From Anaerolineae bacterium (lineage in GTDB: Bacteria > Chloroflexota > Anaerolineae > Aggregatilineales > Ch27): a DNA stretch of 34,471 bases. The position numbers and the translations under genes are program-made. Of the stretch, positions 29,579-34,456 are shown in pieces (the first letter of the stretch is position 1; every line of letters starts with the position of its first letter). The DNA is taken from positions 1-34,471 of the forward strand of contig JABLXG010000035.1 of assembly GCA_013178165.1 (NCBI GenBank), given 5' to 3'. The notes under the pieces are model-generated. The model made no database searches, was not told the origin of the DNA, and saw only the letters and a list, made by a program, of their open reading frames with translations.

Positions 29579-29938
29579 ATGGATTCCCAGCTGGTGCAGG
29601 AAGTTGAATTGCTTTACAGGCAGGTGTGCCATGCCATGGGCGACCCCAAGCGTCTGATGATCCTGTACGCGCTGGCTGGTGGGCAGCGACGTTATGTCAG
29701 CGAGCTGGCCGAGGAGCTGGGCATGCCCCAGCCGACCGTCTCCCGTCACCTCAAAATCCTGCGCGATCGATGCCTGGTCACGGCTACCCGCGACGGTGCA
29801 ACGGTGTATTACACCCTCAAGGATGAGCGCATCATTCAGGCGTTGGATCTGCTGCGGGCCATGCTACGCGATCGCCTGGCCGAGCAGGCGCAACTGGCTG
29901 AGTTCAACGCGCTCAGTGCCGGGCTGGATAACACCTGA
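29579..29938 (+). CDS. ArsR-family transcriptional regulator
   Basis: A 119-residue winged-helix protein. The helix-turn-helix spans about residues 38-61 (RYVSELAEELGMPQPTVSRHLKIL) and the wing is DRCLVTATRDGATVYYTL. The classic metal-binding ELCVCDL motif is replaced by SELAEELG, so it is not an arsenic or cadmium sensor of that type. Two cysteines exist (C17 and C65). Sulfide/persulfide sensors of the SqrR/BigR type also use a Cys pair, but at other positions, so the match is only suggestive. It opens an operon of sulfur-related genes and has a candidate self-operator at 29527-29544. It probably represses the operon. Confidence 0.88.
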   Translation: MDSQLVQEVELLYRQVCHAMGDPKRLMILYALAGGQRRYVSELAEELGMPQPTVSRHLKILRDRCLVTATRDGATVYYTLKDERIIQALDLLRAMLRDRLAEQAQLAEFNALSAGLDNT

Positions 29939-29977: not shown

Positions 29978-31024
29978 ATGAGAAGAGCGAAGCCGTTGAT
30001 ATGGCTCCTGCTCTTGACGGGGGGGATGGCGCTGATCACGCTGACGCTGCTGGTCACAGCAGCCCCGGCTGCGGCGCAGTGTGGCTCCTCGGCGACCTCA
30101 TGCAAGAACTGCCATGAGGTCAACGCTGAATACCCCGTCAACGGGTCAGGAGACTGGCACATCAGTCACGCTTTCGGTGACTTTTGCGCCTTTTGCCACG
30201 CGGGCAACATCCAGGCGACAGCGATGGATGCTGCCCACGAAGGCATGGTCTACCCGCTGGCCGATCCACAGGCTTCCTGTCAGGCCTGCCATCCGGCGGA
30301 CTACATGGATCAGGCCGGGATCTATGCCGTGGCGCTGGGGGTTGACCTGAGTGCGGGAGTATCCGGCGAGGCATCTGGTGGCGGGGGCAGTGCAAGTGGG
30401 GGTGGCGGCGCGACAACCAACCCCGCCGATATCCCGCCGCAGCCGATCGCGCCGCCGGGCGAGCGGCACGCCAGCGGTGCGCTGATCGACTACAACCGCC
30501 GTTATGAGATTGAAGTGCTGGGCAAGCTTGATACATCGCAGGTCGGCAACCTGATCCTGGCGGTGATGGCTGTGCTGCTGCTGGGCGTTGGCGCGGCGCT
30601 GGTCTGGCGCTTTGAGGGGTTGGGGGAAGCCTGGCGCAGGGCGCGCGCCGTCCCGCCGGAGTCAGATTGGCGGCGGCTGGCAGCCAGCGGCGCTTACACC
30701 GGGCGTATGCCCCTGACGGCCCAGATGCGTGCTGCCAGCGTTCAGGTGCCGGTGGTAGTTGCGCCGATCGCCCCGACTCCGGTCGCCTCACCGCCGGCAC
30801 CTGTTGCTCCGACCGCCGGGGTGGTTGATCTGGATCGGCTTGACGCGCCGACCCGTCGGGCACTGGAGACGCTGCTGGCCGACTCACGGCACGGTGGAGC
30901 AATCCTGCGGGCGCTCAGCCGTCTGGACCCGGCCCTGATCAACAGCCTGTCCGGTCTGTCGCGCCAGGATCGTATGCTGCTGCTGGCCGTTGTTGAGCAG
31001 CTAGGGGGAGAGTCTGAGGCATGA
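29978..31024 (+). CDS. Membrane-anchored triheme cytochrome c
   Basis: A 348-residue protein. Residues 1-33 form an export signal (LIWLLLLTGGMALITLTLLV...AAAQ). Three CXXCH heme sites follow: C42-H46 (CKNCH), C70-H74 (CAFCH) and C101-H105 (CQACH). Residues 130-165 are a Gly/Ser/Pro-rich linker, and 190-211 a single transmembrane span (GNLILAVMAVLLLGVGAALVW). A cytoplasmic tail of about 135 residues has an Ala/Pro-rich stretch and a helical end (DLDRLDAPTRRALETLLADSR). It is likely an electron carrier between the membrane and the exported molybdoenzyme encoded downstream. The tail is not recognised. The start ATG 29978 follows AAGGAG. Its stop overlaps the next start (ATGA). Confidence 0.85.
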   Translation: MRRAKPLIWLLLLTGGMALITLTLLVTAAPAAAQCGSSATSCKNCHEVNAEYPVNGSGDWHISHAFGDFCAFCHAGNIQATAMDAAHEGMVYPLADPQASCQACHPADYMDQAGIYAVALGVDLSAGVSGEASGGGGSASGGGGATTNPADIPPQPIAPPGERHASGALIDYNRRYEIEVLGKLDTSQVGNLILAVMAVLLLGVGAALVWRFEGLGEAWRRARAVPPESDWRRLAASGAYTGRMPLTAQMRAASVQVPVVVAPIAPTPVASPPAPVAPTAGVVDLDRLDAPTRRALETLLADSRHGGAILRALSRLDPALINSLSGLSRQDRMLLLAVVEQLGGESEA

Positions 31025-31563
31025 AGTGGCTGCTGAAGCAATTGCGCAAGGATCTGTGGTCGCCGGAAGTAGCCGGGGTAGGGCTGGGACTGGTGTACGT
31101 CTTTGCCCTGTGGTTCGCACACCGCGCTCCCGGTGCATCCGGTACGTTCTTCAATGCGGCGGCGATCGTTGGTAAGCCGCTAACGGCTTCGGACCCGGCC
31201 AACCAGTTCTTTGTGGTGACCTTCCCACCGCTGACCGAGGGGCTGGGCTGGCAGTTCTGGATGCTGGTCGGCATCTTCCTGGGGGCGCTGGCTTCGGTGC
31301 TGATCGCCGGGAAGTTCAAATGGACGCTGGTGCCCCTTGAGCAGTGGAAAGATGTTTTCGGACCGTCGGTACGCAAGCGCTGGATCGTGGCCTTTGTCGG
31401 CGGCATCTTCCTGCAGATCGGGGCGGGGATTGCTGGCGGTTGCACCAGTGGCCTGGCCCTGGCGGGTGGCGTCCAGCTCAGCCCGGCGGCGTTTCTGTTC
31501 ATCCCCGGCATCTTCATTAGCGGGGCGCTTGTACAGCTGCTCGTTTACCGGGAACGGTATTAG
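31021..31563 (+). CDS. YeeE/YedE (DUF395) family transporter, first half
   Basis: A 180-residue membrane protein with about four hydrophobic spans. It carries the YeeE/YedE motif GAGIAGGCTSGLALAGG (Cys141), one of the cysteines on the sulfur-conducting path of the thiosulfate importer family. Full-length YeeE has two such motifs in one chain; here, as in PmpA/PmpB-type pairs, the two halves are separate genes, and the second follows 18 bp later. Likely substrate is thiosulfate or another reactive sulfur (or selenium) species. Its ATG overlaps the cytochrome gene's stop codon. Confidence 0.88.
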   Translation: MKWLLKQLRKDLWSPEVAGVGLGLVYVFALWFAHRAPGASGTFFNAAAIVGKPLTASDPANQFFVVTFPPLTEGLGWQFWMLVGIFLGALASVLIAGKFKWTLVPLEQWKDVFGPSVRKRWIVAFVGGIFLQIGAGIAGGCTSGLALAGGVQLSPAAFLFIPGIFISGALVQLLVYRERY

Positions 31564-31581: not shown

Positions 31582-32226
31582 ATGTCTGTCGGCGATATTC
31601 TGCTTGCTTTGGCGCTCGGCTTTGTCTTTGGCTGGGTGCTGGATAAAGGCGGCCTGAACCGCTACTACAAGATCGCCAACGTCTTCCGCTTCACCGATCT
31701 GACCGTGCTGCGCTTTATGATGATGGGCATGGCAGTCGGAATGGTCGGCATCTATACCCTCAAGTACTTCGGGCTGGCGGATCTGACCGCTGTCTCGGCG
31801 ACGGTACTGGCCGGGAACCTGATCGGTGGCGCTATCTTTGGCGTGGGGATGTCCCTCTCCGGGTTCTGACCGGGCACCTGCATCGCGGGCGGTGCTCGCG
31901 GCCAATTGGATTACCTTATTCCGGGTTTGCTCGGTTTCCTCACTGGCGGCCTGATCTTCGGCCTGATTTACCGTACTGATCTGATTCAGTGGCTCCTGAC
32001 GGCCGGGCGACCGGAACTGGCCTATGCCAAGCTGCCGGACCTGCTCGGCGTGGATCCGCTGCTGCTCACCTTCGTGTTCGCCGAGGCTATCCTGCTCTTG
32101 CTGTACGTGCTGGGCAAGACCCGGGCGCGGCGGCGGGACGTGCTGGAAGCGGCGGTCGAGCGGGAACGGCTTGAGGCCGGCCTGATCGACGCTGCTGAGG
32201 CGCAGACCCAGGGCACGGGCGACTAG
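31582..32226 (+). CDS. YeeE/YedE family transporter, second half; probable selenoprotein (in-frame TGA at 31867)
   Basis: Read through the TGA at 31867-31869, this is a 214-residue membrane protein. Residues 1-95 end in the family motif GVGMSLSGF. The next codon is TGA (position 96), followed directly by PGTCIAGGARGQLDYLIPGLLGFLTGG, the normal continuation of the family (consensus SGxCPGT). The TGA thus replaces the conserved, substrate-contacting cysteine, and the frame stays open for 118 more codons to TAG at 32224. The two parts together equal one complete half-transporter; neither would on its own. A hairpin follows the TGA. Selenocysteine insertion is the best reading. A stop, a sequencing error (TGC or TGT to TGA) or a recent pseudogene remain possible. 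It pairs with the gene 18 bp upstream. Confidence 0.8.
31867..31901 (+). promoter_or_regulatory. Candidate bacterial SECIS element
   Basis: Two alternative hairpins lie just 3' of the TGA. The first pairs 31871-31878 (CGGGCACC) with 31891-31898 (GGTGCTCG), 8 bp with one G-U. A bulged U (31879) and a further GC/GC pair then lead to a 7-nt loop, as in E. coli fdhF. Its loop starts 12 nt after the TGA, which is short. The second pairs 31883-31887 with 31897-31901 and opens its loop 18 nt after the TGA with GG, within the usual spacing and with the required loop G. The two are mutually exclusive. Confidence 0.5.
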
Positions 32227-32239
32227 GGGAGAGGATCGC

Positions 32240-34456
32240 ATGACCGATCAAGAACGCAAAAGGCGACACCTGCCGCTGACCCGGCGGCAGTTCATCAAAG
32301 GGGCGACGCTGGCCGGGACAGGCGCAGCGATGGCCAAGGCCGGCGTCTTTGACCTGGGTACAGCCCACGCTCAGGGGGTTGGTACGACGCACTTTCTGCC
32401 GGGGCCAACGGCTGATTATCAGGTGCCGACCCTGTGCGAGATGTGCGTCTGGCGCTGCGGCGTGATCGCCAAGGTGCGCAACGGCGTCATCGAAAAGCTG
32501 GATGGCAACCCTGATCACCCGCATTCGCTGGGCAACCTGTGCGCGCGCGGGCAAAGCGGCCTGATGATGACCTACGATCCCGATCGCGTGCTTTACCCCC
32601 TGATGCGTGTCGGGGAACGGGGCAGTGGGCGCTTCCGCCGGGCCACCTGGGACGAGGCGCTGGACTTCACCGCCGAGCAGATGTTGCATATCCGCGACAC
32701 CTACGGCCCGGAGGCGATGATCTTCTCCAGCACACACAACCTGAGCCAGCCGCTGTTTGAGAATCTACTCAACGCCTATGGCAGCCCCAACTATGGCACA
32801 CAGCGCAGCCTGTGCTTCAATGCCATGATCACCGCCCACCTGTTGACGCTGGGCATCCAGGAGCCAGCCCGCCGCTACGATGGCATGAATTACATCATCC
32901 TGGTGGGCCGTAACCTGTTCGAGGGTATCAGCACCAGCGAGAGCAGGCAGCTCATGGAGCGCATTGCAGCGGGCGCGCACGTGGTTGCCCTGGACCCGCG
33001 CTTCACCAAGACTGCGGCTCACGCCAGCGAATGGCTGCCGATCAAGCCGGGCACCGATCTGGCCTTCCTGCTGGCGCTGATCAACGTGATCATCAGCGAA
33101 GGGCTGTACGACAGCTGGTTTGTCGAGCGGTACACCGTTGGCTTTGAGGAACTGGCGGCGGAGACAGTACAATATACGCCGCGCTGGGCTGCTGCCATCT
33201 GCGAGATTCCGGAAGCGACGATCTACCGTATCGCCCACGAATTTGCGGCGGCTAAACCTTACGCCTTCGTTCACCCTGGTTGGCGCACCAGTAACTTCAT
33301 CAACAGCTTCCAGACGGAGCGAGCTATCGCCGTGCTCAACGCCCTGATCGGCATCTGCCCGGAGCAGGGCGATTGCATCTTCGCTGATGAGTCTGCGGTG
33401 ACGGTCGGCGTCCCGCCGCAGCCACCCTACCCGCGCGTTACCGCCCTGCGGCTGGATGGCGTGCCGTGGAAGTACCCGCTGGTGCCGCTCAAGCTGGGCG
33501 TGTTCCAGGAAATCCGCGACGCCGTGCTCAGCGGGGAGCCGTACCAGGCGCGCGGGTGGTTCTTCTCCCGCCAGAACCCGATCATGAGCATCCCTGACCG
33601 TGCCAGGACGATCGAGGCTTTCAAGAAGCTGGAGTTCATCGTTTCCATCGACATCATCCTCAACGACTCGTCCTGGTACGCGGATGTCATCCTGCCGGAA
33701 GCTACATATCTGGAGCGGTACGATCCGGTGCATCCGGTGGGCAACCGCGTTTACCTCCGCCAGCCAGTCGTGGAGCCGCTGGGCGAGGCCCGTTCCGCGC
33801 TGTGGATCTACCGCGAACTGGGGAAGCGGCTGGGGCTGGGGGATTACTTCCAGTATGTGGATGAGGAAGACTACATCCGCCAGCAGATCGCGCCGTTTAA
33901 TATCTCTCTGGAACAGTTTAAACAGGTTGGCTACTTCGAGGTAGAGCTGCCGGAAGAGAGCGGCGAGCGCCGCTGGAACACGCCCAGCGGCAAAGTGGAA
34001 CTGGCCTCGGAGACGTTGCGTAATGCCGGGTTCCCCGCCGTGCCGGTCTGGGAAGCGCCGCCGGAGCCGCCCGCCGGGCGCTTTTACCTGCTGACCGGCA
34101 AGGTCGGCCAGCATACCCAGTTCGCCACGCAGAACAACGCTTACCTGACTCAGGTCGATTACCACACTCAGGACCTGTGGCTGCACCCCGCGGCGGCAGC
34201 CGAGCGCGGGATCGCTGACGGCGACCTGGTGCGCGTCACCAGCGATGTGGGCCAGGTGGAAGTGCGCGTGTGGCTGACGGAGGGCATCCGGCCCGACTGC
34301 GTGTACCTGGCGCCGGGCTTTGGCCACCGTAGCCGCGGCCTGAAGGTTGCCTATGACCGGGGCGTCAGCTCCAGCGATCTGCACGTGACCTACACTGACC
34401 CGGTCAGCGGCAGCCAGGCGCTCGCGCAGACGTTTGTCACGGTAGAAAGGGCCTAA
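32240..34456 (+). CDS. Tat-exported molybdopterin oxidoreductase, PhsA/PsrA type
   Basis: A 738-residue Mo/W-bisPGD enzyme of the DMSO-reductase superfamily. A Tat signal is at the N-terminus (LTRRQFIKG, Arg15-Arg16). The [4Fe-4S] site follows with C66, C69, C73 and C101 (CEMCVWRC...NLCARG), and Cys192 (RSLCFNA) is the likely metal ligand. The C-terminal pterin domain starts near residue 610 (FYLLTGKVGQHTQFATQNN). The best family fit is thiosulfate or polysulfide reductase catalytic subunit, in keeping with the YeeE-type transporter and cytochrome in the same operon. Other members (tetrathionate, arsenate) cannot be ruled out. It begins 13 bp after the transporter gene and is followed at 34460 by a new start codon. 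Confidence 0.88.
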   Translation: MTDQERKRRHLPLTRRQFIKGATLAGTGAAMAKAGVFDLGTAHAQGVGTTHFLPGPTADYQVPTLCEMCVWRCGVIAKVRNGVIEKLDGNPDHPHSLGNLCARGQSGLMMTYDPDRVLYPLMRVGERGSGRFRRATWDEALDFTAEQMLHIRDTYGPEAMIFSSTHNLSQPLFENLLNAYGSPNYGTQRSLCFNAMITAHLLTLGIQEPARRYDGMNYIILVGRNLFEGISTSESRQLMERIAAGAHVVALDPRFTKTAAHASEWLPIKPGTDLAFLLALINVIISEGLYDSWFVERYTVGFEELAAETVQYTPRWAAAICEIPEATIYRIAHEFAAAKPYAFVHPGWRTSNFINSFQTERAIAVLNALIGICPEQGDCIFADESAVTVGVPPQPPYPRVTALRLDGVPWKYPLVPLKLGVFQEIRDAVLSGEPYQARGWFFSRQNPIMSIPDRARTIEAFKKLEFIVSIDIILNDSSWYADVILPEATYLERYDPVHPVGNRVYLRQPVVEPLGEARSALWIYRELGKRLGLGDYFQYVDEEDYIRQQIAPFNISLEQFKQVGYFEVELPEESGERRWNTPSGKVELASETLRNAGFPAVPVWEAPPEPPAGRFYLLTGKVGQHTQFATQNNAYLTQVDYHTQDLWLHPAAAAERGIADGDLVRVTSDVGQVEVRVWLTEGIRPDCVYLAPGFGHRSRGLKVAYDRGVSSSDLHVTYTDPVSGSQALAQTFVTVERA

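Follow-up and report, generated by a model that had tools for sequence, protein, structure and literature searches.

Does the TGA codon that interrupts a reading frame in this DNA mark a broken gene, or does it encode selenocysteine (Sec) in a membrane transporter? The window, meaning the whole 34,471-nucleotide stretch of an Anaerolineae contig that was analyzed, contains at 31582-32226 a frame that a standard listing reports as two separate ORFs (31582-31869 and 31906-32226). This is the miscall that an earlier note on the DNA had anticipated when it placed a single TGA on a conserved cysteine of a split YeeE/YedE transporter. On the evidence presented here, one joint reading is very probably correct: the frame is an intact selenoprotein gene, its product is a PmpB-type half-transporter, and Sec96 of this product would act as a sulfur relay with Cys100 as its candidate partner.

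The internal TGA falls on a conserved cysteine position

The gene and its internal codon are assigned as follows.

31582..32226, + strand: 214-aa pmpB-like half of a split YeeE/YedE transporter, containing one predicted Sec codon (PF04143, homologues, dN/dS)
31867..31869, + strand: predicted Sec codon TGA, residue 96, equivalent to Cys91 of Spirochaeta thermophila YeeE (6LEO/6LEP alignment, relatives, more than 30 TGA loci)

The TGA is codon 96 of 214 and the only internal stop in the frame. It lies in the sequence SGF-TGA-PGTCIAGGARG, which would be read as SGF-U-PGTC. The read-through product matches PF04143 (Sulf_transp) across residues 31-184 and profile positions 10-156, with 69.6 bits (E 4.5e-19) against a Pfam cut-off of 27 bits. 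The closest named relatives are from Chloroflexota/Anaerolineae MAGs, and the plasmid collection contained a single weak relative.

Alignment with homologues across the TGA confirmed that the frame is family-like on both sides and that the TGA matches a Cys codon of the relatives; among 17 aligned relatives, this cysteine is invariant. Codon 96 also aligns with Cys91 of S. thermophila YeeE, with a weak sequence score of 26 bits. The PDB entry 6LEP is titled ‘inactive mutant C91A’ of YeeE. A Foldseek search of the PDB returned a weak match to the same entry (E 0.72, probability 0.92) from a query model with a pLDDT of 69, and is treated as supporting only.

Recurrence and selection

The genomes searched numbered 400 for the phylum, 396 for the class, and 95 for the phylum to which the genome of locus L026 belongs. 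An internal TGA was found in more than 30 homologous loci, always and only at this codon, while about 30 others have TGC or TGT. Both states occur among close relatives: L019, L021, L025, and L026 have TGA, whereas L020, L022, L023, and more distant relatives have TGC or TGT. Since more than 30 related bacteria share the TGA at the same position, the apparent break is predicted to be one intact selenoprotein gene rather than a broken one. The TAA and TAG codons returned by the class search were rejected as other Sec codons, being terminal stops or, once (L094), located upstream of the gene.

The earlier note had named gene decay as a finding that would speak against its proposal. No decay was observed: every pair tested, those of the window included, gave a dN/dS of about 0.25 or less on either side of the TGA, which argues for translation past the codon. 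A nonsense mutation or sequencing error is therefore scarcely credible. Errors can produce a lone TGA in a draft genome, but this one recurs in more than 30 assemblies from several lineages, none with a further internal stop, is followed by sequence with a similarly low dN/dS, and is retained in a genome of the same genus (G679) despite an upstream dS of 0.4.

A tree was built from 63 homologues (32 Sec and 31 Cys forms) with the Sec column masked and L103 left out. The Sec/Cys label changes nine times on the best tree and at least five times on well supported branches. In one case, a TGT form (L084) and a TGA form (L088) are sisters with a protein distance near zero, and the 57 bases after the codon are identical in the two.

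Several variants were observed beside the main set. L026, L101, and L102 form a separate second Sec clade of CPGT-type half-transporters in another phylum, with a SECIS-like loop 24 nt downstream of the TGA; the cytochrome and PhsA-like genes described below were not found near them in the stretches examined. The distant homologue L103 has TGA at the site, followed by PGSS (UPGSS), and is without the cysteine at +4. L116, L117, and L122 have GVCAAPI/V in place of the Cys-PGT motif; in the L117 locus, read at greater length as L140, the pmpA-like half and the start of a Tat molybdoenzyme are still present. Two full-length YeeE-type genes from one genus (L136 and L137, in genomes G528 and G441) have an in-frame TGA at the equivalent of Cys22 (SQRGRF-TGA-MLSAFFEV), which is possibly another Sec position in the YeeE family. 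Their Cys91-equivalent codon is TGC, the hairpin near the TGA is weak, and the ATG directly after the TGA would conceal it from annotation.

Selenocysteine machinery of the host genome

All four genes that the earlier note had listed for checking, selA, selB, selC, and selD, were found in the genome of the window (G000; 4.19 Mb, 98.6% complete), the tRNA-Sec having a UCA anticodon. In this genome, selD itself contains an in-frame TGA (SCAG-U-ASKLGP), as does the formate dehydrogenase gene fdhA (DHCARL-U-HSS). Selenoprotein members of both families have long been known. Of 10 TGA genomes tested, 9 have SelA; none was identified in the draft genome of L021. Because many genomes with Cys forms also have SelA, its presence is a necessary condition and not a correlate of the Sec state. 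It was not found in the genome of L020, which is a Cys form.

These data also bear on whether a different amino acid is inserted at the TGA, through an altered code or a suppressor tRNA, or the codon separates two proteins. The second ORF does have a potential TTG start at 31906, but its product would be without the CPGT motif. TGA serves as an ordinary stop elsewhere in the window, for example at 31022-31024 where it ends a normal gene, a tRNA-Sec with the matching UCA anticodon exists, and at this codon PGT-motif homologues encode Cys, never Trp or Gly. We consider both possibilities very improbable.

A predicted SECIS hairpin downstream of the TGA

The earlier note had also described a hairpin after the TGA. 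One was located by published bacterial SECIS rules.

31883..31901, + strand: predicted bacterial SECIS hairpin with an 8 bp stem and the loop GGU (31891-31893)

The hairpin, TCGCGGGC-GGT-GCTCGCGG, has a predicted energy of -10.8 kcal/mol, with competing folds, and its loop lies 21 nt after the TGA. This level is attained by 5% of synonymous shuffles. The claim thus stands as a rule-based hairpin at 31883-31901 and fails as a generic one, as the fold of the whole region 31860-31910 is no better than that of shuffled sequence (z = 0.69). Within the clade of the window, the minimum-energy fold differs from the SECIS-like hairpin and variation is too low for a test of covariation. Because generic folding is at chance level and another fold has lower energy, the case for the hairpin in this clade comes from the rules and from analogous hairpins of relatives.

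The informative test was the rule-based one, applied with Cys forms and synonymous shuffles for comparison. A strict hairpin was defined as a perfect stem with a loop of at most 4 nt starting with GG or GU and an energy of -6 or lower. This was present in 30 of 32 Sec forms versus 2 of 31 Cys forms. Both Cys forms with the hairpin (L084, L090) are from a clade that mixes the two states. The hairpin of L084 looks like a leftover SECIS, since L084 is the sister of the Sec form L088; that of L090 is harder to read, as L080, its direct sister, is a Cys form as well.

Covariation was observed in the 19 Sec forms with a loop 18 nt downstream of the TGA, in which 99.1% of pair cells are paired. Their closing pair is C-G in 11, U-A in six, and A-U in one, and the encoded residue varies between Gly, Ser, and Cys along with the pair. 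Support for the hairpin comes from this covariation and from the difference between Sec and Cys forms, not from the shuffles of single genes, which gave modest probabilities (0.01-0.9). On phylogenetically independent pairs, the association of hairpin and Sec did not reach significance because only five supported pairs were available; at most four of these differ, in all but rare cases in the expected direction.

Taken together, alignment, sel genes, the SECIS-like hairpin, and the lack of decay support the proposed insertion of Sec at the cysteine position, as far as sequence data can.

A cysteine four residues after the predicted Sec codon

A second residue of interest follows the motif.

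31879..31881, + strand: codon TGC for Cys100, at +4 from Sec96, candidate Sec partner; Cys at +4 occurs in Sec forms

Cys stands at this position (U-PGT-C) in every one of the 32 Sec forms in the tree, compared with 10 of 31 Cys forms, which suggests a Sec-Cys pair. With phylogeny taken into account, the association appears suggestive and is not significant on independent pairs. In the AlphaFold model (pLDDT 69), a helix begins at residue 97, which would place residues 96 and 100 about one helical turn apart. We hypothesize that the two residues form a redox pair.

Operon organization

The gene is located in an operon, and four further features were assigned in and upstream of it.

29579..29938, + strand: ArsR/SmtB-family regulator upstream of the operon (NF033788, over cut-off)
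29978..31024, + strand: protein resembling c-type cytochromes, with a membrane segment at its C-terminus, in the same operon (CxxxxCH/CxxCH match weak and below cut-off)
31021..31563, + strand: pmpA-like half (C-terminal half of YeeE), 180 aa, with TGC for the Cys293-equivalent in GGCTSG (PF04143 positions 169-308)
32240..34456, + strand: Tat-exported molybdopterin oxidoreductase, nearest to thiosulfate reductase PhsA (PF00384, PF01568)

The product of 31021-31563 scores 59.5 bits against PF04143, likewise above the cut-off, and matches the other half of the profile. The two genes thus constitute a split YeeE/YedE pair in which the C-terminal half is encoded first. In the operon-type Sec loci read, the partner half retains TGC in GGCTSG. 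The molybdoenzyme scores 590.7 bits with the PhsA model NF012032, under its cut-off of 694. For the regulator, the TsoR and BigR models scored below their cut-offs. The name TsoR and others from NCBIfam were rejected on account of such sub-threshold scores. The cytochrome-like protein contains CKNCHE, CAFCH, and CQACH and a long C-terminal tail, and has no good family model.

Gene order is conserved in a 41-member clade that includes the window and reaches a Neomarinimicrobiota MAG (L024) and a Hainich bacterium (L025). Where the stretch is long enough, the order is cytochrome, pmpA-like, pmpB-like, PhsA-like molybdoenzyme, the cytochrome-like gene being conserved upstream of pmpA across the clade. 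The exceptions are L021, without a detectable PhsA downstream, and L113, with no match in a short downstream stretch. In the longer loci, genes for c-type cytochromes, a TtrB-like Fe-S protein, and NrfD or a cytochrome b561-type subunit follow farther downstream. At the other end, the window and its nearest relatives have an ArsR-family regulator ahead of the operon. The Cys-only clade (CPGTI and similar) gave no match for the cytochrome or for the PhsA-like gene within the stretches examined.

Relationship to known systems

A similar architecture is that of PmpA and PmpB from Serratia and others, in which two short genes encode the C- and N-terminal halves of YeeE with one conserved cysteine each (PMC11582611). 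The single cysteine of PmpB corresponds to Cys91 and that of PmpA to Cys293, both of which are indispensable in TsuA (PMC11582611). Compared with PmpA and PmpB (about 130 aa), the halves in the window are longer (180 and 214 aa) and have the CPGT motif, the predicted Sec, and an extra cysteine. In S. thermophila YeeE/TsuA (6LEO, 6LEP, 8J4C, 8K1R), Cys91 aligns with residue 96 and Cys293 has its equivalent in the partner half. The protein is, however, a single chain without Sec and has Cys22, which has no equivalent in the two-gene form of the window. Hence, the three cysteines (22, 91, 293) of full-length TsuA/SoxT are not all found here: 91 is replaced by the predicted Sec, 293 is in the partner, and 22 is absent. 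PmpAB members likewise are without Cys22 (PMC11582611). The TsuA model (NF052577) gave 39 bits against a 400-bit cut-off, with each half scored alone against a full-length model.

A YeeE/YedE thiosulfate transporter selenoprotein with the motif GUxSG (WP_012471001.1) has been predicted and is already listed in reviews (PMC13188914, PMC9312934). It has in common with the present gene the PF04143 family and a predicted Sec. The window differs in its motif, GF/Y-U-PGT-C (here GFUPGTC), its two-gene transporter, and its operon with a PhsA-like enzyme. From its sequence, the split GF/Y-U-PGT-C form is a distinct, widespread variant; no description of it was found in the literature searched, which lay outside subscription journals and preprints. 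The neighbouring PhsA-like, TtrB-like Fe-S, and NrfD or cytochrome b subunits resemble PhsABC/polysulfide reductase, from which the window differs in having an enzyme below the PhsA cut-off and a transporter and cytochromes alongside.

Two further readings accept the Sec and assign the protein another role. If it were a selenium-handling transporter of the YedE/FdhT type, its weak similarity to the YedE/FdhT model (NF033796) and the candidacy of YedE as a selenium transporter (PMC9312934) would fit. The score of 34 bits, from setting each half alone against this full-length model, is however far under the curated 350-bit cut-off, the neighbours form a PhsA-like reductase operon rather than sel genes, and the Cys form L020 occurs in a genome where SelA was not found. 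This assignment is unlikely. It is doubtful, too, that the two halves serve a PhsA-like respiratory complex as a redox or sensor subunit instead of forming a transporter. The conserved position of the split protein between cytochrome and molybdoenzyme and the resemblance of Sec and the +4 cysteine to a redox pair favour such a role, but jointly the halves span the greater part of the YeeE profile, and the positions of Cys91 and Cys293 are both retained.

Proposed mechanism and significance

Under the preferred reading of a Sec-containing sulfur transporter, SelB and tRNA-Sec would decode the UGA at 31867 as Sec, aided by the hairpin 21 nt downstream. The product would be the N-terminal PmpB-type half and would pair with the PmpA-type half, the product of the preceding gene. 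In YeeE, thiosulfate is proposed to meet conserved cysteines in succession across the membrane (PMC11073785), and Sec96 would stand where Cys91 meets the passing sulfur compound. The substrate and redox role are proposed from the neighbours and the family. Sec96 probably relays a sulfane-sulfur species, such as thiosulfate or polysulfide, across the membrane beside the PhsA-like molybdoenzyme. It would be expected to have a lower pKa and faster exchange with persulfide or thiosulfate. The role of Cys100 is probably to make a selenenylsulfide with Sec96 or else to resolve a selenopersulfide. As a tentative and rather doubtful extension, Sec96 and Cys100 may constitute a selenenylsulfide/selenopersulfide center within a split membrane channel, be reduced by the cytochrome or quinol side of the operon, and thereby couple sulfur import to the PhsA-like respiratory enzyme. 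If true, this would be a selenium-based redox transporter instead of a passive thiol relay.

Most Sec residues studied to date belong to enzymes. In the present family, the predicted substrate-contacting residue of a sulfur transporter alternates repeatedly between Cys and Sec across more than 30 species-level genomes, and the hairpin appears and fades together with the Sec state. Genes of this kind are split into two fragments by standard ORF calling. With TGT in one, TGA in the other, and the same hairpin in both, L084 and L088 constitute a natural single-codon experiment on Sec in a transporter.
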